A stretch of DNA of 24,624 bases from a virus. This document shows, one piece after another, positions 592-15,327 of the stretch. Each line of letters opens with the position of its first letter. Within the stretch, counting starts at the first letter, position 1. The position numbers and the translations under genes are program-made. Where the stretch lies: positions 1 through 24,624 of IMG/VR virus record IMGVR_UViG_3300042402_002201; one strand, given 5' to 3'. Below the pieces are notes generated by a model. The model did no database searches. It was not told the origin of the DNA and saw only the letters and a program-made list of their open reading frames with translations.

Positions 592-1443
592 TTAAGTACC
601 CCATTCATTTTTGAACAATGGAACTTGAAGCCTATCGCTATAACGTAGACCATGCTTCATAGCAAAGTCTGCGACATTACGATTGTTCATCTTGTAAACA
701 CTTTCAACGCCACCGAGTGGCATTACATATATTGGACCAGTAAACCCTGCATCACGATATAGTTTTGAAACTTCTAATACTTCTTGACCATCTTCTTCAC
801 TAGCAATAACAAACTTTAAGTATGCATGACCAACTTGTTCATATTGACAAATGACTTCGGGCTTGATTGCTTTCTCACGCTTTTCACCACTAACACTCAA
901 CTTAGCACTAACGCTGAATGTGATTTCACGGCCCATCTTAGCCCACTGCCACATAGTCAAGTAGTCAATTAGTTCTGCACTAAGTTTCTGCGTACCATTA
1001 GTTTCAAACGTAATCTCTTTGAGACCATGCATCAATGGATGTGCTAGTAATGCAGGGTAACTACGTTGCCAACCTAATAGAGGTTCACCACCTGTAATTA
1101 CTAAGTGTTCGTCACGCCACTCTTTGTATGGGAGTGTTTCAATGATTGCTTCTGCGATACTATCCGTTGTAAGAAACGGCGAAAGATGTTTGAACCTAGG
1201 ATCCCAACTAGCATAAGAATCGCAACCGGAATTAACAAGAGGTAAATCTCTATACTGCTTAAACCCCTTACTATTGCTTGCAATACTGTGTCGTTCATTA
1301 CTCTTTTCTCCTTTAGGCATACCAAAGCCATCACATGTAAAGTTACAACCGAACGTTCTTAAAAACACGGAAGGCACACCCATGTATCGGCCTTCACCCT
1401 GAATACTATAGAATAGTTCGCTTATCTTAATCTTTTTTGTCAT
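592..1443 (-). CDS. queE: QueE-like 7-carboxy-7-deazaguanine synthase (radical SAM)
   Basis: QueE is a radical S-adenosylmethionine enzyme that rearranges 6-carboxytetrahydropterin into 7-carboxy-7-deazaguanine (CDG), the third step of the preQ0 pathway. Counting from the ATG at 1443 (283 aa), the protein opens with ISELFYSIQGEG, a typical QueE N-terminus, then has Fe-S cluster cysteines C33 and C37, and C74 in a SGCDSYASWD segment. The TGGEP motif for SAM binding is at 117-121 and FETNGT follows. The normal spacing is CxxxCxxC; here about 36 residues lie between the second and third Cys. I recall similar insertions in phage and marine QueE-like proteins, so the enzyme is probably active. The frame stays open to 1500, but the ATG at 1443 has a GGA about 10 bases upstream and matches the family N-terminus. 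It overlaps the small membrane-protein gene upstream by 17 bases. Confidence 0.9.
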   Translation of the reverse strand: MTKKIKISELFYSIQGEGRYMGVPSVFLRTFGCNFTCDGFGMPKGEKSNERHSIASNSKGFKQYRDLPLVNSGCDSYASWDPRFKHLSPFLTTDSIAEAIIETLPYKEWRDEHLVITGGEPLLGWQRSYPALLAHPLMHGLKEITFETNGTQKLSAELIDYLTMWQWAKMGREITFSVSAKLSVSGEKREKAIKPEVICQYEQVGHAYLKFVIASEEDGQEVLEVSKLYRDAGFTGPIYVMPLGGVESVYKMNNRNVADFAMKHGLRYSDRLQVPLFKNEWGT

Positions 1444-1591
1444 TATCTGTTTTCCAACCATGTCGCCATGGGTCAAATCCATGCTTTTTTCTAAATTCAT
1501 ATCTGTCCTTTAGCATTAAGTATTGTCCATAAACAATAAGCATTGCTACTGACATTACCACGCAGATGAATAATACTTCAATAATTGTCAC
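1427..1591 (-). CDS. Small single-span membrane peptide, 54 aa (GTG start)
   Basis: A GTG at 1591 opens a 54-codon frame that ends in TAA at 1427, inside the start of queE. The first ~24 residues are strongly hydrophobic (IIEVLFICVVMSVAMLIVYG) and would form one transmembrane helix; the tail is polar and basic with an FRKKHGFDPWRHGW segment. An AAGGA sequence about 10 bases before the GTG could be its ribosome binding site. It is the first gene after the TTGACA promoter at 1613-1641, which fills the space between promoter and queE and supports a real gene. Translation probably couples to queE, because the stop lies 17 bases past the queE start. I recognise no family. It could be a small inner-membrane effector. 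Confidence 0.65.
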   Translation of the reverse strand: MTIIEVLFICVVMSVAMLIVYGQYLMLKDRYEFRKKHGFDPWRHGWKTDNDKKD

Positions 1592-3330: not shown

Positions 3331-3828
3331 TCAAGCAAATAAATCCTCGTTCCATTCACGGTGACCTTCACGGTATGCCATGTTACTCTGTGTCTCACGC
3401 ACTTCTACACGATAGCACCATAGTCTAGCAGCCTCGCTTGGACCCCAGTAATCAGGAATGTAAACGCCATTGATATACTTGTAAATCTGATCTGCTAGAC
3501 TTTCACATCCTAATCTTGGAAGAATAGTTAGTTTAGCCATGTTCTTTTGTTCTAGTAACTTAAATGTTTCTAGTTCAGGATCATCTTCTGCTACAAGTAA
3601 CGTATGATCGAATTGATCTTCTAATAGACCCTTGAGTTCCTTTAGACCACCGTAATCAGCGGCCCAGTTACGAACATCAAGTTCATCGGTTCCGAAATAT
3701 ACTTTAATACTGAAACTATAACCGTGAATTAAATTACAATGACTGTCGGCACGCCACTGTCTGTAGGCACATGGAAATGAATCGTGATACTCTTTGGTAC
3801 TTGTGTACTTATATGTTACTGATTGCAT
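3331..3828 (-). CDS. queD: QueD-like 6-carboxytetrahydropterin synthase
   Basis: QueD converts dihydroneopterin triphosphate, the product of FolE, into 6-carboxytetrahydropterin. The 165-aa protein keeps the catalytic residues: C31 in SHCNLIHGY, the D74-H75 pair in QFDH, E109 in CESLAD, and E145 in VEVRET, the pterin-binding Glu. Two of the usual zinc-binding His are replaced: the family AAH is CAY (Y22) and HGH is HGY (Y37). I recall a bacterial and phage QueD-like branch with the same FPCA..RQW and IHGY pattern, so this is probably a variant metal site and not decay. The ATG at 3828 follows an AGGAG sequence and a strong promoter; a longer frame to 3876 would start inside the promoter. The next gene begins one base after the stop. 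Confidence 0.88.
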   Translation of the reverse strand: MQSVTYKYTSTKEYHDSFPCAYRQWRADSHCNLIHGYSFSIKVYFGTDELDVRNWAADYGGLKELKGLLEDQFDHTLLVAEDDPELETFKLLEQKNMAKLTILPRLGCESLADQIYKYINGVYIPDYWGPSEAARLWCYRVEVRETQSNMAYREGHREWNEDLFA

Positions 3829-3847
3829 GCTTATTTCTCCTATGTTA

Positions 3848-3876
3848 ATATTAGCATAGGCGGCAGAATTTGTCAA
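3848..3876 (-). promoter_or_regulatory. Strong sigma70-type promoter for queD, the DadA-like gene and the phosphoribosyltransferase gene
   Basis: On the minus strand a perfect TTGACA (3876-3871), a 17-base spacer, and TAATAT (3853-3848) preceded by TGC, which gives an extended -10. Transcription would start near 3841, leaving a very short leader with AGGAG before the queD ATG at 3828. Confidence 0.75.
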
Positions 3877-3915: not shown

Positions 3916-4140
3916 TTAATCTTTATCTGTAACAATTACTGCTACCTTATTAACCCAAACCATGCGGCCGTGGCAGGCAATGTTCCATTTGGTCTGTCCG
4001 TATTCTTCGGTGCATTCAGTAAAGGTTTCACCGATGATGCGAACATCTGTAGCCAGATGCTCTACACCATTTTCAAAAACACGCCAAACTAAATCGCTTC
4101 CTGCATGCTTGGTATTGAATCTTACATGATACTTATTCAC
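3916..4140 (-). CDS. Conserved hypothetical phage protein, 74 aa
   Basis: This 74-residue protein starts with GTG at 4140, and its start overlaps the upstream stop as GTGA. The sequence begins MNKYHVRFNTKHAGSDLVWR and contains VFENG, ATDVRI and a late WVNKVAVIV strand, giving a mostly beta-strand, soluble appearance. It has no membrane segment and no clear catalytic motif. From memory, small proteins with the same opening (RFNTKH...VWRVFENG) occur in T4-like cyanophages as conserved hypotheticals. It is the last gene of the coupled chain that runs down from folE, and the next promoter (for queD) follows at once, so it probably ends that unit. No function can be assigned. Confidence 0.75.
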   Translation of the reverse strand: MNKYHVRFNTKHAGSDLVWRVFENGVEHLATDVRIIGETFTECTEEYGQTKWNIACHGRMVWVNKVAVIVTDKD

Positions 4141-4994
4141 TTAAGACCCATTTCTTTCCTGATCTTAGTAGCACTGATTGAATGTGTAGCATCGTCAAAT
4201 ACCTCTTGTTCAATCTTGTATCCAACATCACGCCCATATGTAATGTTTACAATGTTTGGTACTACTAAAATTTCATACTGACCCTGATATAATGGATCAA
4301 GATCACGCTTGATAAAGTTCTTTACTTGTTCGATAGCAAATGGATTGCTACCATTCCAGCCTTGACAGTCACGAATCATAATAGCAACTTGTCCAGTCTT
4401 AGCAATAGCACGTTCGAACAATGCACGATGACCCGGGTGCCATGGTTGCCAACGTCCTAGCATCTGTACAGTTTCTTTCTGCCAATCAAATGTAGGTCTG
4501 CGGCGATTGTCTAGAATATGCTGACCTACGAACTCAACCCATTTCTCAGCATTTTGTTCGGTGATACGGAAGTCATATACTTCGGGTGGAGTAAATGCTT
4601 TGTTAGTATCTTCGTATCGCCCCGCTTCGATAGTGTCAATCCAAATAGTCCAGTCTGCCTTGAAATTATGACGCATCTCAGGGAGAGGTGCGACAAAATC
4701 ACAAATAACAAAATCACCGGTACATTTAATAGCAAATTCAAACATTCGTAAACTTTGACGAATGCGCCCTTCTTTACTAAAGTCCCAATCATTGTAACGC
4801 TTACGAATTTCATCTGCGTTAAACCAGTCTACCTTAGCACTCCAATCATTTGGAGGCCACTCTAAATGTATCATACGCTCTAAAGGCATATGATCTATTG
4901 TGCTATTCTCTTCTAAGTATTTCTTTAGTCTTTCTGCGAAATACGTTTTGCCCGCACCGGGCAGGCCCATAATTAAAATTCTTTTTGCTGTCAT
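4137..4994 (-). CDS. Fusion of an APS-kinase-like P-loop kinase and a HxGH nucleotidyltransferase
   Basis: The 285-aa protein has two parts. Residues 1 to about 165 form a P-loop kinase with Walker A GLPGAGKT (10-17), FNADEIR (58-64) and a GRIRQSLRM helix (76-84), the pattern of adenylylsulfate kinase. Residues about 176-285 form a nucleotidyltransferase of the HxGH class: LGRWQPWHPGH (179-189) and the C-terminal ISATKIR (273-279). The GRWQPWHPGH form is close to NMN adenylyltransferases of the NadM/NadR kind. Thus it could make PAPS (pairing with the sulfotransferase at 14728-15327), work in NAD salvage, or activate a sugar or polyol phosphate. Similar fusions are annotated in T4-like marine phages. 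The ATG at 4994 overlaps the upstream stop as ATGA. The fold assignments are firm; the substrate is open. Confidence 0.85.
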   Translation of the reverse strand: MTAKRILIMGLPGAGKTYFAERLKKYLEENSTIDHMPLERMIHLEWPPNDWSAKVDWFNADEIRKRYNDWDFSKEGRIRQSLRMFEFAIKCTGDFVICDFVAPLPEMRHNFKADWTIWIDTIEAGRYEDTNKAFTPPEVYDFRITEQNAEKWVEFVGQHILDNRRRPTFDWQKETVQMLGRWQPWHPGHRALFERAIAKTGQVAIMIRDCQGWNGSNPFAIEQVKNFIKRDLDPLYQGQYEILVVPNIVNITYGRDVGYKIEQEVFDDATHSISATKIRKEMGLK

Positions 4995-6085: not shown

Positions 6086-6210
6086 TATTTGCTCCTACAG
6101 TTACATGGTCTACGACCTTGATTGCAATCACCTAAACATCCACCGGGCAATCTGCGAACGATAGATAATGCGATTCCAGCAATTACTAGAACAATTAACA
6201 AACTTAGCAT
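6085..6210 (-). CDS. Small membrane peptide with a Cys-rich tail, 41 aa
   Basis: A 41-codon frame fills the space between folE and the 78-aa gene. It starts at the ATG at 6210, seven bases inside the 3' end of folE, and its TAA shares one base with the next ATG. The first ~18 residues (MLSLLIVLVIAGIALSIV) make one membrane helix, followed by two Arg (positive-inside anchor) and a tail rich in Cys and Gly: GGCLGDCNQGRRPCNCRSK. The GDCNQGR..CNC pattern recurs, from memory, in very small phage membrane proteins of unknown role. The four Cys could bind a metal or make disulfides if the tail is outside. It is easily missed because of its size, but overlaps on both sides support it. Confidence 0.72.
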   Translation of the reverse strand: MLSLLIVLVIAGIALSIVRRLPGGCLGDCNQGRRPCNCRSK

Positions 6211-6887
6211 GTCTTACCCATTCTAGCAATTGCTAAGAATTCTGCACGTGCGGCAGGATCATCCTTGAATCCGCCACCTAGACGGCAAGTAACTGTTGAA
6301 CTACCTGTATCTTCAACACCGCGGCTCTTGACGCAATAATGTTGTGCGTCAATCATAACAGCAACATCCTCTGTGTCAAGGATAAACTGTAGTGTGTGAA
6401 AAATTTGTTCTGTAAGACGTTCTTGAATCTGCGGACGCTTAGAAAAATATTCTACGATACGATTAATCTTAGATAGTCCCAACACCTTGTTCTTAGGCAC
6501 ATATGCAACAGTAGCGGTGCCATCAATGATAACAAAATGGTGCTCACAATTGCTTTGTACATTGACGTTCCTTTCAACTACCATTTCGTTGTACTTCATC
6601 TTATTGTCAACTGTGGTACATTTAGGGAATGCATCATAATCAAGACCCCAAAAGATTTCATTGACATACATTTTTGCCACACGTTTGGGAGTATCGATGA
6701 GACTATCATCGGTTAAGTCTAGTCCCAAGGCCCTCATGATTTCAGCAAAGTTACCTTCGATGATATCAATCTGTTCCTTACGGTCTAGATTACGCTTTTT
6801 AATGGGAGTTTCGACACCGACTTTTACAAGATGATCATGGACTAGTTGGCCCAATTCGGGATCGGTTTTAGTTTTGTTAAATGACAT
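6204..6887 (-). CDS. folE: GTP cyclohydrolase I
   Basis: FolE opens GTP and recyclises it to dihydroneopterin triphosphate and formate. This is the first step of folate synthesis and of the 7-deazaguanine pathway. The 227-aa protein is full length (E. coli 222). The zinc ligands are visible: C114 and H117 in NCEHH, and C185 in QHYCVKSRG, matching C110, H113 and C181 of E. coli. VLGLSKINRIVEYFSKRPQIQERLT is the family signature around 136-160, and RGVEDTGSSTVT follows. An AAGGAAGGAA sequence lies directly before the ATG. With queD and queE in the same window the likely role is to supply pterin for base modification, although folate support for nucleotide synthesis is also possible. It shares seven bases with the membrane-peptide gene after it. 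Confidence 0.95.
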   Translation of the reverse strand: MSFNKTKTDPELGQLVHDHLVKVGVETPIKKRNLDRKEQIDIIEGNFAEIMRALGLDLTDDSLIDTPKRVAKMYVNEIFWGLDYDAFPKCTTVDNKMKYNEMVVERNVNVQSNCEHHFVIIDGTATVAYVPKNKVLGLSKINRIVEYFSKRPQIQERLTEQIFHTLQFILDTEDVAVMIDAQHYCVKSRGVEDTGSSTVTCRLGGGFKDDPAARAEFLAIARMGKTC

Positions 6888-7358: not shown

Positions 7359-8120
7359 TTATGTTAATATATCATAAACTAGTTTATTTTCAAGTAAAAA
7401 GGGAATTAATACCTTTTCTACCATTGCTTTGTGTTGCTCTGTGCTAGGATGAGGATCAGGGGGTCTGGCATGCTTAAATCCAGACTTTTCTTTAGCATAC
7501 TCATACATGTTATTAATTGGTAACCACTGTGACCTATCAATTTGATTGTATAAGAATGTTAAATCTTTATCCGAGTTGAGTAGTTCTTTTTTGAATGGAG
7601 CAGAATCAAACGTATCATAATCGTATTCGGTCATGAAATACTTTACATTATTCAACTTCAATAGCCATTGAATTCTTAATACATGCTCTAATGTAATCAT
7701 TAGAGAATCCTCACGGATATATGCATGCTTTACAAAGTTTGTAGTTAAATTATCATTCCAGTGAACATTGACAATATGATAGTTATGTTTATCTACGATC
7801 TTTACCGGGTTCTGATATACTTCGGTTCCGTATTCAATTATTGTGGTATCTAATCTATTCTTAGAATAGATTTCTCTACGATTGTGACCACTCCACATGA
7901 CACCGACTAAAATTTCTTCTGGCTTATAAGTTTCTAATGCTTCGGTTAAAGCATGCACCACTTTTCTACTAATAATTCCATTGCCGGCCGCGCCTTGTCC
8001 TAAATAGTATACCTTTTCGGGATTTAACCACTCATTTAAATGAACGGGCCAAGTAGTATCCCTATTTGGTACTTGACTGTAACTACAGCCTGCTGTAATT
8101 AAACATTTGATATTTTTCAT
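7359..8120 (-). CDS. SGNH-like protein 1
   Basis: The 253-aa protein has the layout of the SGNH/GDSL hydrolase superfamily, enzymes that cleave esters on lipids, glycans or other acylated molecules. An early GCSYS (11-15) takes the place of GDS, with S13 as the likely nucleophile. Block II/III is GQGAAGN (41-47), block III-like is VMWSGHN (74-80), and the C-terminal DPHPSTEQH (222-230) could give the catalytic Asp and His. No signal peptide is seen, so it probably works inside the cell or on the virion. Its ATG overlaps the stop of the GMP reductase gene (TAATG). It shares its motif order with the proteins at 11772-12662 and 19230-19814. Similar proteins occur in marine phage genomes without a known substrate. 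Confidence 0.72.
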   Translation of the reverse strand: MKNIKCLITAGCSYSQVPNRDTTWPVHLNEWLNPEKVYYLGQGAAGNGIISRKVVHALTEALETYKPEEILVGVMWSGHNRREIYSKNRLDTTIIEYGTEVYQNPVKIVDKHNYHIVNVHWNDNLTTNFVKHAYIREDSLMITLEHVLRIQWLLKLNNVKYFMTEYDYDTFDSAPFKKELLNSDKDLTFLYNQIDRSQWLPINNMYEYAKEKSGFKHARPPDPHPSTEQHKAMVEKVLIPFLLENKLVYDILT

Positions 8121-9163
8121 TACTTTGTAAAAATCCTATTATATTGATTATTTACTCTTACAAAAGTAGTACACTTACTTAACTGCTTTAAACTACTTGC
8201 ACCTACGTATGTGCAGGTACTGCGGATACCACCTAGAACATTTAATACGGTACTCTTCACAGGACCTTTATAGGGAACTTCTACAGTACGCCCTTCGCTA
8301 CTGCGATAATCAGCGATACCACCGTGGTGTTTTTCCATAGCAGTATCACTGCTCATGCCATAAAATCTGACATAAGTATTTCCGTCTTCCTTTTTAAATC
8401 GTTCGCCCCCACCTTCATCATGTCCGGCAAACATTCCGCCTAACATTACAAAGTCAGCACCCGCACCGAAAGCCTTACTAACATCACCAGGACAAGTACA
8501 TCCACCATCAGCAATAATATGACCACCAAGACCGTGAGCGGCATCGGCGCATTCAATAATAGCACTAAGTTGAGGGTACCCTACACCAGTTTGAATGCGA
8601 GTAGTACAAACGCTGCCAGGCCCAATACCCACTTTAACAATATCTGCTCCTCGTAAAATCAACTCTTGTGTCATATCACCAGTAACAACGTTACCAGCAA
8701 TGATTGTATGTTTGGGATATTTATTACGAACCTTGGCAACAAAATCTCCAAAGTGTTCACTATACCCGTTCGCTACATCGATACAAATGAAATGTATTTC
8801 AGGATAAGTATTTAGAATTTGTTGTAATTTACTCCAATCATTGTCGCCGGTGCCTGTACTAATAGCACAGAAGTTTCCAAATCGTAAAATATTTTCGCCG
8901 GAGTTTTCAATGAAGTCATGTAAATTATAACTTTTAACAAGACAGGTAAACATCCTATGTTCATGTAACGATGCAGCCATTTCAAACGTACCAACACCAT
9001 CCATGTTAGCAGCCATGATAGGAACGCCTGTCCATTCCCATCCTGAATGCTTGAACTTGAAAGTACGATTCAAATCAACTTCTTTGCGACTACTTAAAGT
9101 GCTACGTTTTGGACGAATTAATACGTCACTAAAATCTAATTTGATTTCAGATTCAATTCTCAT
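8120..9163 (-). CDS. guaC: GMP reductase
   Basis: GuaC reduces GMP to IMP with NADPH and releases ammonia. The protein has 347 residues, the same length as E. coli GuaC. The catalytic loop [11 protein letters not shown] puts the active Cys at residue 186, the same position as in the known enzymes. [47 protein letters not shown] and [13 protein letters not shown] follow as in GMP reductases, and there is no CBS insertion of the kind found in IMP dehydrogenase. It lies between a glycosyltransferase and an SGNH-like gene, starting 2 bases after the former. GMP reductase is rarely seen in phages. It would move guanine nucleotides towards adenine, and together with the phosphoribosyltransferase could recycle guanine. 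Confidence 0.95.
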
Positions 9164-9165
9164 TT

Positions 9166-10353
9166 TTAAAACTTTGATTCACGTGAATGCTTGCGATAGT
9201 CAGGTGACATACGCAATAGATGTTGACCGCGTCCTTCTAAAATATTGCAGATACGGTCGATAGTGCCATTGGTATGATCACTGATCTTACCAACATGTGG
9301 ATGTTGTACTGTTAACAACTTGTGCAGTTTTGTCATAGCATCTTCGATTGACCACGGCACATATAGACGTTCATGATCATTTGCAAACGTTTCTGGGAAA
9401 CTGCGATATGCTGGATATAATACATTACAATTCAATGCATCTGCTTCACTGACTGTATTACTTACCCAGTCTTGCAATGCACAGTTGAACAATACACGTG
9501 TATCATTCAACAACAAATAGTAATGTGTCTTGTCTAGATTTTCATAGACCTTGAGTTTACCTTCTTCCTGCATTTGCTTAGTACGTTCCATATAACTCTT
9601 GTTATTGCTACGTAGTGTGGAACCACTAAACACTGCAAATTCAACTTTACTATCTGGATTGCGTTCATGCCATGCATCAATCAAATCCATATAGAAGTCA
9701 GGTTGCTTTTCTTGATCCCAACGTGCGGCAAATGCAACACGCATATGTCTCTCTTCAAACGGCTTGATATTTTCGCCCTTGTCTAACACTCTACGGCGTA
9801 CTTCATCTTTACCAAATGCTAGCCCCGAAATATTATATAGAGGAGCAGTCCATCCAGCAACACGCATATGAGCGACCATCTCTTCATTTGAGGCGAGAAC
9901 TCCGTCCACGAATTGATTAACCATTTGTTCGTAGAGGCCCATCCATTTCGCCATACCCCATACGTGTACGAAATCATCAGGATCAATGGACTGAGCAAGA
10001 CAACGGACAAACACACGAGGACGCTTACTAGCAGGGATTTGATCCATGATGTAAGGTAAACTTTCGATGCCGGGCTGAAACATGTCCTCAAAGTAGATAA
10101 CATCTTCATTGTTTACTTCCCCTTCTTTCATCATTTTAACTAAGTTCATCATCTGACTCATGCCAAAATATGAACGACCATGAGCATCCAATACTTGCCC
10201 GGTTACAATTGACTTTGTACTATCTAGTGTATCACCGGGTACTACAACATAATCAATCTTTCTACGCTTAAAGACTTCTGTGTTCCAGTCTGTAAGTTGT
10301 AGTGTATAACGATCCTTATAAGGCTCAAGGCCCATGTAAAATAGTTTGCGCAT
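9166..10353 (-). CDS. GT-B-type glycosyltransferase (GT4-like)
   Basis: This protein of about 395 residues has the look of a GT-B glycosyltransferase. The C-terminal half carries [20 protein letters not shown], matching the G-R-x-x-x-x-K motif region of GT4 enzymes, then [20 protein letters not shown], where the ...E-A... segment takes the place of the E-x7-E nucleotide-sugar site, and [11 protein letters not shown]. The N-terminal half ([20 protein letters not shown]) has no membrane segment. The ATG at 10353 overlaps the upstream stop as TAATG and follows GAGG; a longer frame to 10383 lies inside the upstream gene. Acceptor and donor are unknown; DNA, a virion protein or a host glycan are all possible. 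It directly follows a nucleotidyltransferase-cupin gene that could supply an activated donor. Confidence 0.75.
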
Positions 10354-11111
10354 TATTTCCTCACTATATCTTCTTCGATGCAATTTGTACCATATTGAAT
10401 TTCGATAATTTTTAATGGCTTATCAGATTCGTTAACTAACTGATGCCATTGACGTAATGGTACATGTAAATACTGATGTTCATTATACTTGCCTACTAAT
10501 TCAACGTCAGTACTAGATGGGTCAATTGTGTAAACAGTTGCTTGACCCTCACTTACGAACCAAAACTCAGCACGATTTTGATGTTTCTGCATACTTAAAC
10601 ATTTGCCGGGTTCTACTGTAAGTTCTTTTAGTTTTACACCGGGCCCATTCTCATGCAATATTCTATAATATCCCCATTGACGTAGTGTTTTGGGTGCTTT
10701 CCATTCTTCAAGAATCCAACTACTTGAATTCTTTTTGTCATCACCACCAACACTAAATCTAAATTCAATGTCCTTTACAGACATTTCAGGAATATTTGTA
10801 GCAGTTCTATCCCCTCCATTAGCAAAGATGATCTGTGCGTAGGGATAACTATTTTTTAAATCTTCTAATAAACTGATGGCTGAGCCATCACTATCATCAA
10901 ACGTCAATGTAGCGTCTACGTCTTTAAGACTACCTACAATCTCTCTACGTTCATGAAGTGGCATGAAAGGCTGGCCCTTTTTACGGACCAGCCACTCGTC
11001 ACTGTTAACACCTACAATTAGTTTATCACCTAATTGTCGTGCCGCTCTAAAGTATGCGATATGACCTGAATGTAACGGGTCAAATCCACCAGTGACAACT
11101 ACAATTTTCAT
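10353..11111 (-). CDS. Nucleotidyltransferase-cupin fusion
   Basis: The 252-aa protein joins an N-terminal HxGH nucleotidyltransferase of the RfaE/TagD type with a C-terminal cupin. VVVTGGFDPLHSGH (4-17) carries the HxGH motif, followed by the GVNSDEWLVRKKG loop and LHERREIVGSL helix. From about residue 160 a cupin follows: LKELTVEPGKCLSMQKHQNRAEFWFVSEG, very like the C-terminal domain of type II mannose-6-phosphate isomerase/mannose-1-phosphate guanylyltransferase (ManC), with candidate metal or substrate residues in K-H-x-x-R-A-E. The order suggests one protein that both activates and epimerises or isomerises a sugar phosphate. Similar fusions occur in marine phages. It overlaps both neighbours (ATGA upstream, TAATG downstream) and probably works with the glycosyltransferase. 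Confidence 0.82.
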   Translation of the reverse strand: MKIVVVTGGFDPLHSGHIAYFRAARQLGDKLIVGVNSDEWLVRKKGQPFMPLHERREIVGSLKDVDATLTFDDSDGSAISLLEDLKNSYPYAQIIFANGGDRTATNIPEMSVKDIEFRFSVGGDDKKNSSSWILEEWKAPKTLRQWGYYRILHENGPGVKLKELTVEPGKCLSMQKHQNRAEFWFVSEGQATVYTIDPSSTDVELVGKYNEHQYLHVPLRQWHQLVNESDKPLKIIEIQYGTNCIEEDIVRK

Positions 11112-11320
11112 GTGCGAGGTTTAGCATCCAACGACCAATTGTCCTTAACAGGCTTGCCTGCTACGAACTTTTGAAACTGACGGAACACATAACTCTTAGT
11201 AGAGTATAGATCCTTCTCGTCAAAGACGTACCCGTAATCCTTACAGAATGTAAGGTAAGCATCTAGGTCATCAAAAACCTGACGGGTGCGTGGGTTATGC
11301 TTGATAGTTACTTTTGCCAT
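11108..11320 (-). CDS. Conserved hypothetical phage protein, 70 aa
   Basis: The 70-residue protein opens MAKVTIKHNPRTRQVFDDLDAYLTFCKDYGYVFDEKDLY and ends with FQKFVAGKPVKDNW. I recall nearly the same pattern (TIKHNP.TRQVFDDL...FC.DYGYVF) in T4-like cyanophages as a conserved hypothetical. It looks soluble, alpha/beta, and has no catalytic motif. A GGAG sequence precedes the ATG at 11320, and its stop overlaps the nucleotidyltransferase-cupin start as ATGA. Function unknown. Confidence 0.78.
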   Translation of the reverse strand: MAKVTIKHNPRTRQVFDDLDAYLTFCKDYGYVFDEKDLYSTKSYVFRQFQKFVAGKPVKDNWSLDAKPRT

Positions 11321-11332
11321 TTTGTTTTCTCC

Positions 11333-11785
11333 TTAAACGGCTAGTTGTTGATATGGAATGTGAGTGTTGTAGTAAATTGTGGCACCATTCTCTCCGTCCT
11401 CGCTTACGGTGATAGTAATGTCACGCCCAGGATAACGATCAGCGATTTGTTCATATAAGTCATCACTAATCATTTCACAACTCTTGAAATTCAATTCAAG
11501 TGTCCCGCCGGCATAAAGATTTTCTAGCCAACGTTTAAATTGAATGAACTCAATATCCCTGTCATTGTGAAATACTTGAATCCCCACATTGAAGTGGAAG
11601 ATATGTCTGTGAGGATACCCTAGAAAACTAACGTCATATTCATCGCCAGTTGCTAGATTAGGGTCAGTAGCAGCCGCTGGGTACTTATGAATTCCTTCTT
11701 TTCGAAAGGTAACCCAAATCATACGCTTTGCCTTATCTTTGATACGCAAACGCTTTTCTGCTAATGCTACATTATGTTCGTTCAT
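11333..11785 (-). CDS. Divergent QueD/PTPS-like T-fold protein (inferred)
   Basis: The 150-aa protein shows the motif order of QueD-type proteins, though weakly. HRHIFHF at 59-65 stands where QueD has HGHSF (zinc ligands), IEFIQFKRWL (78-87) matches IIDF..LK, SCEMISDDLYEQI (102-114) matches the TSE.LA..I helix with E104, and ITVSEDGENGATIYY (125-139) matches V.V.ET...G.IY with E129. The loop with the catalytic Asp-His pair is missing (only about ten residues lie between LENLY and SCEMI), and no catalytic Cys precedes HRH. Thus it is either not a catalyst or catalyses a different reaction. The ATG at 11785 overlaps the SGNH-like gene by 14 bases with AGGA upstream; a second candidate is MIWVTF at 11722. 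I recall relatives in T4-like cyanophages as hypotheticals. The gene is firm; the fold is my inference. Confidence 0.6.
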   Translation of the reverse strand: MNEHNVALAEKRLRIKDKAKRMIWVTFRKEGIHKYPAAATDPNLATGDEYDVSFLGYPHRHIFHFNVGIQVFHNDRDIEFIQFKRWLENLYAGGTLELNFKSCEMISDDLYEQIADRYPGRDITITVSEDGENGATIYYNTHIPYQQLAV

Positions 11786-13181: not shown

Positions 13182-14741
13182 TTATTCGATAATTTCAGAC
13201 ATTGCATCATCGCTATCTTCGATGACTTCATCCATTTCAGGATCGTCTTTAGTATCAGATTCTTCGACCTCAAACAACTGATTAAACATAGTATGTGCAT
13301 TGACAGTTTTCTTACCACTAAAGCCTTGACCGGCCTTAAACTGTTGCCAAAATCTATCATACTTATCAATCATAGCAAGGCTCTTTTCACGATCCTTGAG
13401 AGAGAAAATCTCGTCAACAATATCTGAGAAGTTAAGATGACCATGTGGATCCATAACCATCTTAGGCTTGATACCTTGATCGTAACGGCGATTTGCTTCC
13501 TGCACTGCAATCATATGCTGATATACATTGTGTGCTTGAATCAATGTATATGAAAGGGTATCCCAACTAGTCTTAGTTTCTTTACCATGCTGGCCTAAGA
13601 AACCGTGACCACGATAACAAATGTCTTTCATCAATAACTTGTCAGTTACTGGGCTGTCGGTAAACAACTTGTGAATACCATCTTGCAATACACCATCACT
13701 ATACTTGCGATTGTCTGTTGCATAGTTCTTATTTTCAGCAGTCTTTTCCATTGCATAAGTCCACTTAGTGTCATGCTCAAACGTATTATTATTATAAGCA
13801 AGACCCTTAGCAGCCGCAAAGAACGGACTAGCACAGTCAAATGTAATTTGTAGTTTTGGATTGTGATACTTACGAATTGCTCGTTGAATATCACTGAACA
13901 ATACAGCATATTCCATGATACTAGTGCCGAGACAGTGAATCAAATCTTGCTTACCTTCTTCAAGGAAGCCATCATGAATAATGCCTACAAGACGCTTCAA
14001 CATCAAGTGAATGTCAATCTTGTTTTGACCACCAAACGCCCAGCCATTGAATGCACGATCACCATAGATACTAGTGTCGCAATACTTCTTCATTTCTTCA
14101 TACCAGTCATCACTCTGTGTATGATTGCGTCCCTGTAACACGTTTAAGAACTTGCAACGACCATCTCGGTTCTGAATAAAGTATTCATTGTTAATATGAG
14201 TAGCAGTAATTGCTTCTTCAATCGTACTGATACCATGTGCTGATTTGCCGGTCTTCTTATCTTTGATATGATAAGTTGTTAGTGATTGTGAAGGAATATC
14301 AAGGCACATGCCATAATCCATGTACTCATCCATCCACTTAAGAACTTCTGTTCTCTTCTTCATTGCACGTGGGCAATTAGGGTCCTTCCAATCTGCTGGC
14401 CATTGACACTTAAGAATCTGAAACCCACCAGAGTCTCCTAGAAGAAATGTACCTTCTTCTCTCTTGCGAATGATAGATTCGTTATGGTCATCCTTAGTAA
14501 TATCAAGATTCGCATGACCAGCAGAATACAAGCCCCACTTATATGTGTATAAGCCTTGCTTGCTATTAAGGAAGTTCAAACATTCAACGTCACCGTTGAA
14601 ACTTGCAGGGATTCTAGCCTTGTCAAAATACTGTTCACCTTCACGTTGCTTACCTAAGCCACTAATGAAGAATGAACTGACTGCTGGCAGAAATAAGGCC
14701 CAATTAGGGTTGTGACTATTTGAAAGATTAATTTGATTCAT
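13182..14741 (-). CDS. dpdA: DpdA-like DNA guanine transglycosylase (TGT superfamily)
   Basis: DpdA enzymes exchange guanine in DNA for a 7-deazaguanine base, as TGT does in tRNA. The 519-aa protein has the TGT active-site blocks in order: GDSGGFQIL (102-110, D103 equals the TGT general acid/base Asp), FLNVLQG (198-204, like G-I-V-Q-G), GWAFGGQ (233-239, like GGLAVG), HCLGTS (269-274, like YLMGVG) and TFDCASPFFAAAKG (300-313), where D302 matches the TGT nucleophile in FDC..PTR. The TGT CxCxxC zinc site is not seen, as expected for a distant relative acting on DNA. An acidic tail ends the protein. FolE, QueD and QueE elsewhere in the window supply the base. The start at 14741 overlaps the sulfotransferase gene by 14 bases. 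Known phage DpdAs vary widely, so the subfamily remains open. Confidence 0.88.
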   Translation of the reverse strand: MNQINLSNSHNPNWALFLPAVSSFFISGLGKQREGEQYFDKARIPASFNGDVECLNFLNSKQGLYTYKWGLYSAGHANLDITKDDHNESIIRKREEGTFLLGDSGGFQILKCQWPADWKDPNCPRAMKKRTEVLKWMDEYMDYGMCLDIPSQSLTTYHIKDKKTGKSAHGISTIEEAITATHINNEYFIQNRDGRCKFLNVLQGRNHTQSDDWYEEMKKYCDTSIYGDRAFNGWAFGGQNKIDIHLMLKRLVGIIHDGFLEEGKQDLIHCLGTSIMEYAVLFSDIQRAIRKYHNPKLQITFDCASPFFAAAKGLAYNNNTFEHDTKWTYAMEKTAENKNYATDNRKYSDGVLQDGIHKLFTDSPVTDKLLMKDICYRGHGFLGQHGKETKTSWDTLSYTLIQAHNVYQHMIAVQEANRRYDQGIKPKMVMDPHGHLNFSDIVDEIFSLKDREKSLAMIDKYDRFWQQFKAGQGFSGKKTVNAHTMFNQLFEVEESDTKDDPEMDEVIEDSDDAMSEIIE

Positions 14742-15327
14742 GCCATTTTACCTGATCAAAAAATTTCTGATCCTCTGCAAGGTACTCCATCATGTCATTA
14801 TATATGTCTTTATCATTACGTGCAACATCTACTAGATGTTTAGGGCTTGAACCATCAGTCCAACATTTCCATTCAACAGGACCTTCTTTAAAATCGGGAA
14901 CCATTGGACGTAACAAGTTGTACATATCACTTCCCCAATCACTTCTATTCTCATACTTGATGTAAATTACATCATCTAAATTAACACCATTTAGAAATTG
15001 TAACTGTGTACAAGTATGAGGATCTGTTGGAAAATTATTAAAGATTTTTTCTCTACTATAGATTGTGTCTAAGTCAAAATCTTCAGGGGCATACATGCCA
15101 GAAATAATTCTTTCTAGCGGATCACGTAAAACAATAAGTTTTGTTTTGTTGCGTAAATTTTCGAAACTGTCTAGTGGTTTAAGATTTTCGATAGTCCCAA
15201 TACAATCAAAATTATTGTGTTCGAATACACTGCGTAACCAAGTGCTTCCGCACCTAGTTACGGGGATGTAAACAAAATCTACATCTTTACGTGAGTATAC
15301 TGCGTTACCGATATTAATCTTACTCAT
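14728..15327 (-). CDS. Sulfotransferase-family protein
   Basis: Sulfotransferases move a sulfo group from PAPS to a hydroxyl or amine. The 199-aa protein has a 5'-phosphosulfate loop at VYIPVTRCGSTWLRSVF (19-35; R25-C-G-S-T stands where K-x-G-T-T/S is usual) and a 3'-phosphate site VLRDPLERIISG (66-77; RDP..R..SG). These two motifs in this spacing are diagnostic. The usual Lys in the first loop is Arg, as in many Sulfotransfer_2/3 type members. The ATG at 15327 overlaps the upstream stop (TAATG). It lies directly ahead of dpdA, and a kinase with APS-kinase features is encoded at 4137-4994, so PAPS could be made by the phage. The acceptor is unknown; glycan, virion protein or DNA cannot be separated. 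Confidence 0.82.
   Translation of the reverse strand: MSKINIGNAVYSRKDVDFVYIPVTRCGSTWLRSVFEHNNFDCIGTIENLKPLDSFENLRNKTKLIVLRDPLERIISGMYAPEDFDLDTIYSREKIFNNFPTDPHTCTQLQFLNGVNLDDVIYIKYENRSDWGSDMYNLLRPMVPDFKEGPVEWKCWTDGSSPKHLVDVARNDKDIYNDMMEYLAEDQKFFDQVKWHESN

Follow-up and report, generated by a model that had tools for sequence, protein, structure and literature searches.

A QueD-like T-fold protein of phages that may decarboxylate 7-carboxy-7-deazaguanine in place of QueC

The product of QueD is 6-carboxy-tetrahydropterin, and the zinc ion of the Escherichia coli enzyme is held by H16, H31 and H33. Cui et al. (NAR, 2023) reportedly found 2'-deoxy-7-deazaguanine and predicted a decarboxylase of 7-carboxy-7-deazaguanine (CDG), named DpdL. 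CDG is the product of QueE and the substrate of QueC (PMC13329287). An earlier survey found that QueC is almost always present in phages with QueE (PMC6884629). In tubercidin biosynthesis a CDG-derived carboxylate has been proposed to be removed, after ribosylation, by the UbiD-type protein TubF (PMC6112128), so other solutions to CDG decarboxylation exist.

The window analysed here is a virus record of 24.6 kb (IMG/VR record IMGVR_UViG_3300042402_002201, 24,624 nucleotides). It contains an intact open reading frame on the minus strand, the coordinates of which (11333–11785) were exactly confirmed, that encodes a protein of 150 amino acids; a Shine-Dalgarno-like AAAGGAA lies directly 5' of the ATG. 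This protein, referred to below as the T-fold protein, was studied through its PHROG match, an AlphaFold2 model, Foldseek, conservation and its sequence. It matches PHROG 17812 (E=5.9e-36), to which no function is assigned, and nothing above cut-off in Pfam, NCBIfam or PADLOC. The gene was found by tblastn in 26 GenBank phage records, all of which label it 'hypothetical', and it is present in at least about 600 IMG/VR stretches, so what an earlier note on this DNA had called a small conserved phage protein left as hypothetical is a large viral family. Carriers include PA5oct/Paride, ACP17 and Cellulophaga phage phiST. The plasmids that were searched contained no relative.

Some members of the family differ in architecture. 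The protein of Bakedbeans has an N-terminal extension, and in Chryseobacterium phage MA9V-3 (L091, 6431–7312) an endonuclease VII/HNH domain is followed by the T-fold domain in a single fused protein; neither fusion is informative on function. In another locus (L274, 7956–8888) the frame with the T-fold domain runs on C-terminally for approximately 200 amino acids that have a MazG-like look. In Cellulophaga phage phi13:1 (L090) the gene immediately upstream of the T-fold gene is a MazG gene.

The AlphaFold2 model, built with 69 aligned relatives as input, has a pLDDT of 93.6 and a pTM of 0.83. Its elements follow the order strand 21–33, strand 59–71, helix 80–92, helix 103–117 and strands 123–129 and 133–139, and this beta-beta-alpha-alpha-beta-beta arrangement is the T-fold order. 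In a Foldseek search of the PDB all matches at E<=0.001, ranks 1 to 24, were QueD or 6-pyruvoyl-tetrahydropterin synthases (PTPS), with E-values from 2e-5 to 9e-4 and E. coli QueD as the best match (4ntk, E=2.2e-5). In a viral structure library relatives from the same family ranked first and viral QueDs next. On the strength of this model the protein almost certainly has a T-fold, as the earlier note had predicted in relating it to QueD.

The relationship is also detectable between profiles. Aligned with hhalign to a small QueD profile, the family gave a probability of 86.8% and a score of 41.8, and the scores of 100 column-shuffled QueD profiles averaged 13.1 and never exceeded 27.3. The Pfam PTPS family (PF01242) does not match the T-fold protein and matches five of 69 relatives, at E=0.02 or worse. 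Single-sequence and profile searches of the PDB returned chance matches only (bacterioferritin, E=0.05); QueD was thus found by fold search and not by sequence alone. Four motifs that had been compared with those of QueD are all present in the protein. Three of them are aligned by HMM-HMM comparison, IEFIQFKRWL on IIDFAELK, SCEMIS on TSEVLA and ITVSEDG..ATIY on VMVKETC..CIY, whereas the pairing of HRH with HGH is not fixed by the alignment. The top match to the PTPS family is accompanied by corresponding Glu residues and, by motif position in the predicted structure, by corresponding His residues.

Conservation was scored over 84 representatives sharing less than 80% identity. The residues H33, L55, H59, H61, F63, V71, R76, E79, F80, S102, C103, E104 and E129 are the same in all of them, and H73, D130 and E132 are near-invariant. 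According to hhalign E104 corresponds to E86 of E. coli QueD and E129 to E110, and both are invariant in 84/84 representatives; their counterparts in PTPS are the glutamate of the TxE motif and the one that anchors the pterin. In the model H33 ends the first strand and H59 and H61 begin the second, as do H16 and H31/H33 in QueD. A forced global hhalign alignment did not pair the N-terminal histidines of the two proteins, and H33, H59 and H61 are putative zinc-ligand positions by motif and strand position.

The catalytic residues of QueD have been lost. The nucleophile Cys27 is replaced by the invariant Leu55, four residues before HRH, and the Asp-His loop (Asp70-His71 in QueD), already reported as missing from this protein, is absent in all 84 representatives, a deletion throughout the family. 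The loss of the nucleophilic Cys, and H73, R76, S102, C103, D130 and E132 as new near-invariant residues, were not mentioned in the earlier note. As the His and Glu sites are kept while Cys and Asp-His are lost, binding and a putative metal site appear to be retained and the chemistry of QueD to be gone.

The window also encodes enzymes of the deazaguanine pathway. QueE (7-carboxy-7-deazaguanine synthase) is at 592–1500 (minus strand; PHROG 2076, E=4.3e-53) and FolE (GTP cyclohydrolase I) at 6204–6887 (minus strand; PF01227, 1.2e-61; NF006824, 327.7 bits, above cut-off). A canonical QueD with C..HGY and FDH motifs is found at 3331–3876 (minus strand; PF01242, 60.8 bits; PHROG 2389), so the T-fold protein is indeed the second QueD-like protein of the window. 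This phage QueD has HGY where E. coli QueD has HGH, which changes a zinc-ligand His to Tyr, and the HGY type also occurs in ACP17, BUCT-ZZ01, phi13:1 and RHph_I1_18. The product of 13182–14741 (minus strand) is unrecognised by Pfam, PHROG and NCBIfam models and was identified by structure only as a DpdA-type transglycosylase: its AlphaFold2 model (pLDDT 88.9) matches TGT (E=1.6e-7) and the preQ0 insertase DpdA (7ui4, E=1.6e-6) in Foldseek, and it has DSGGFQ at 103–108 and D302 in FDCASP.

Other genes in the window encode a member of a GT-B-like glycosyltransferase family (9166–10383, minus strand; family A6, homologues of which match Glycos_transf_1), GMP reductase (8120–9163, minus strand; TIGR01305, 565.8 bits, above cut-off) and a phosphoribosyltransferase (1642–2187). 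The last two are the same pair as TubD and TubE of tubercidin biosynthesis (PMC6112128). Directly downstream of the T-fold gene is a gene for a 70-aa protein with no function assigned (11108–11320, minus strand). A fusion of a nucleotidyltransferase with a kinase that weakly resembles APS kinase (4137–4994, minus strand) and a weak sulfotransferase match (14728–15327, minus strand) are possibly sulfate-transfer functions. We surveyed 114 loci of at least 9 kb from viruses and phages; genes within 8 kb of the T-fold gene include FolE in 79%, a DpdA of the type in the window in 76%, the 70-aa protein in 66%, the glycosyltransferase in 65% and the phosphoribosyltransferase in 19%.

The T-fold gene and QueC exclude one another. 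We compared 24 carriers with 14 other phages. The carriers were 11 phage genomes in GenBank, whose hosts differ, and 13 long contigs of IMG/VR; the comparison phages were 13 QueE-positive phages without the T-fold gene and the control CAjan. QueE is present in 24/24 carriers, FolE in 22/24 and QueD in 21/24, and profile searches found full-length QueC in 0/24. Short QueC matches barely above the Pfam cut-off in D479 (profile positions 133–201) and in one contig (3–61) were not counted. QueC was above the Pfam cut-off in all 14 comparison phages, the weakest being Moby (partial, 4e-9) and Illi-2 (3e-20), with 1.7e-76 in CAjan, and none of these QueE- and QueC-positive phages has the T-fold gene. 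For the 11 and 14 GenBank phages Fisher's test gives p = 2e-7, or 3e-6 with Moby taken as QueC-negative, values that are uncorrected for relatedness.

The same exclusion is seen among phages of Cellulophaga, where phi13:1 and phiST carry the T-fold gene but lack QueC, and phi47:1 shows the reverse combination. DpdA2 (PHROG 10773) accompanies QueC in nt-1, KVP40, pf16, 6E35 and Moby, and its partner in ACP17, X1 and BUCT-ZZ01 is the T-fold gene. This is a natural swap of partner in which the transglycosylase family is unchanged. A scan of cellular genomes found 22 loci with the T-fold gene. Three of them, in Amycolatopsis (L284, L286 and L287), have the order DpdA-like, T-fold, QueD, QueE, FolE, and terminase- and portal-like genes follow FolE in L286, which is therefore a prophage. 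No QueC was found in the whole Amycolatopsis genomes, in which the only matches were short and inside unrelated frames of 646–968 amino acids. A frame at L089, 5700–6950, considered as a glycosyltransferase, proved to be DpdA2 instead. The Pfam TGT model was tried as a detector of DpdA and matched in none of the phages studied here, including CAjan, which has DpdA; absence of a Pfam TGT match is therefore uninformative.

These results support the earlier suggestion of recruitment to a new task, perhaps deazaguanine binding, through the clusters with FolE, QueD, QueE and DpdA and the exclusion of QueC. That suggestion named no step, and the evidence points to the CDG branch point. The T-fold protein likely acts at or after CDG, replacing QueC. 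Against this reading, preQ0 could in principle come from QueC of the host in most of the phages. A substitute for QueC should use CDG, as QueC does, and amide or nitrile formation is unlikely for the T-fold protein because it has no ATP-binding motif. We therefore propose, with a probability of about 0.6, that it is a CDG decarboxylase giving 7-deazaguanine.

In the proposed route FolE, QueD and QueE would lead to CDG, which the T-fold protein would bind at the point where QueC would convert it to preQ0. A pocket of the QueD type sets a carboxylate beside zinc, so that CDG, its 7-carboxylate lying next to the metal, would be a natural ligand. The side of E104 and E129 would grip the 2-amino-4-oxopyrimidine ring, as QueD grips pterin, and the 7-carboxylate would face the putative metal on H33, H59 and H61. 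H73, R76 and D130/E132 may then aid protonation of C7 and loss of CO2, which is simple chemistry on an electron-rich pyrrole, and DpdA would insert the product 7-deazaguanine into DNA. Binding of a metal and of CDG at this site, the decarboxylation itself and action on the free base are what we infer from these observations. To our knowledge no T-fold decarboxylase has been described.

The T-fold protein might instead be a non-catalytic adaptor that binds either CDG or 7-deazaguanine and passes it to DpdA, which we consider unlikely. The loss of the entire catalytic triad of QueD would suit an adaptor, as would the arrangement in some of the cellular loci. The T-fold gene adjoins or overlaps DpdA in Amycolatopsis and in Magnetospirillum, where the order is glycosyltransferase, T-fold, DpdA and then QueD. 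The T-fold gene is, however, accompanied by at least three DpdA types that can barely be aligned with one another (that of the window and PA5oct, DpdA2 and that of Amycolatopsis), a variety not typical of a dedicated docking partner, and the family conserves more residues (the metal-site His residues, H73, R76, E79, S102, C103 and D130) than a simple carrier needs.

The glycosyltransferase family of the window is present in 17/24 genomes with the T-fold gene and, weakly, in 1/14 phages with QueC, which suggests that the base is further glycosylated in most T-fold phages. This co-occurrence would also fit a substrate other than free CDG, either the base already in DNA, as in a decarboxylation of dCDG there, or a nucleotide, or the making of another C7 derivative, possibly with the glycosyltransferase. 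Ribosylation has been proposed to precede decarboxylation in tubercidin synthesis (PMC6112128), and the phosphoribosyltransferase and GMP reductase of the window could be seen in the same light. On the other hand, pockets of the QueD type take small free bicyclic substrates, seven of the 24 carriers lack the glycosyltransferase and the phosphoribosyltransferase accompanies the T-fold gene in a minority of loci (19%, as above), and there is only a small chance that this alternative is correct.

An upstream action on a pterin, such as assisting QueD or standing in for it, is improbable, since 21/24 carriers have a separate QueD and the excluded gene is QueC and not QueD. The QueD-like fold and Vibrio phage D479, which has no PTPS match, are in its favour, as is a diverged homologue in Streptomyces sp. 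NEAU-Y11 (L288, 7938–11584) that has lost the VSEDGE motif and E129. The neighbours of this homologue are QueD, FolE, a cytidine-deaminase-like protein and an FAD-binding enzyme, and QueE was not found in the genome; a relative may therefore act on a pterin, which counts against a strictly CDG-only role, and the cluster possibly makes a pterin product of a new type. It is very improbable that the T-fold protein is a relative of Tad6 (PF25188), an inhibitor of Thoeris, and serves as an anti-defence sponge. The Pfam match of the protein that prompted this lead (E=0.06) scores 13.8 bits, well below the cut-off of 27, and the lead was dropped after a check over 69 relatives: four matched (best E=0.011), no more commonly than PTPS does (5/69), and neither strict linkage to the deazaguanine pathway nor exclusion of QueC would be expected of a sponge.

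If the T-fold protein is a CDG decarboxylase, fold and step would be assigned to a family that carries the label 'hypothetical' in at least 600 stretches of viral contigs and also in phages that have been studied well, and the completion of the 7-deazaguanine pathway in phages without QueC would be explained. The predicted base in their DNA would be 7-deazaguanine or a derivative and not preQ0, and the T-fold gene could serve as a marker from which the restriction systems evaded by such phages could be predicted. The family would also offer a test of the conversion of a T-fold into a decarboxylase. A bolder scenario, to which we give little weight, is that a duplicated T-fold enzyme of QueD descent evolved into a metal-dependent decarboxylase and displaced QueC in many phages, in most of which the glycosyltransferase makes a sugar-bearing 7-deazaguanine new to DNA.

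Among known proteins QueD/PTPS (PF01242; E. coli QueD, 4NTK) shares with the T-fold protein the fold, the pathway and the aligned glutamates, and its zinc ligands H16, H31 and H33 have putative counterparts, by motif and strand position, in three histidines. It differs in that the T-fold protein has Leu for Cys27, no Asp70-His71 loop, approximately 17% identity and no Pfam PTPS match above cut-off, and in that the T-fold family has an HNDR insertion with the near-invariant H73 and the invariant R76. The predicted DpdL would likewise take CDG as its substrate in phages that have FolE, QueD, QueE and DpdA and lack QueC, and it is in such phages that the T-fold family is present, as expected of DpdL. 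The two may well be the same family. The T-fold protein fills the slot of QueC (PF06508), which uses CDG (PMC13329287) and is, in contrast, an unrelated Rossmann-type ATP-dependent enzyme. TubF resembles the T-fold protein in its proposed removal of a CDG-derived 7-carboxylate (PMC6112128), whereas it has a UbiD fold and a likely prenyl-FMN cofactor and is thought to use a ribosylated form.
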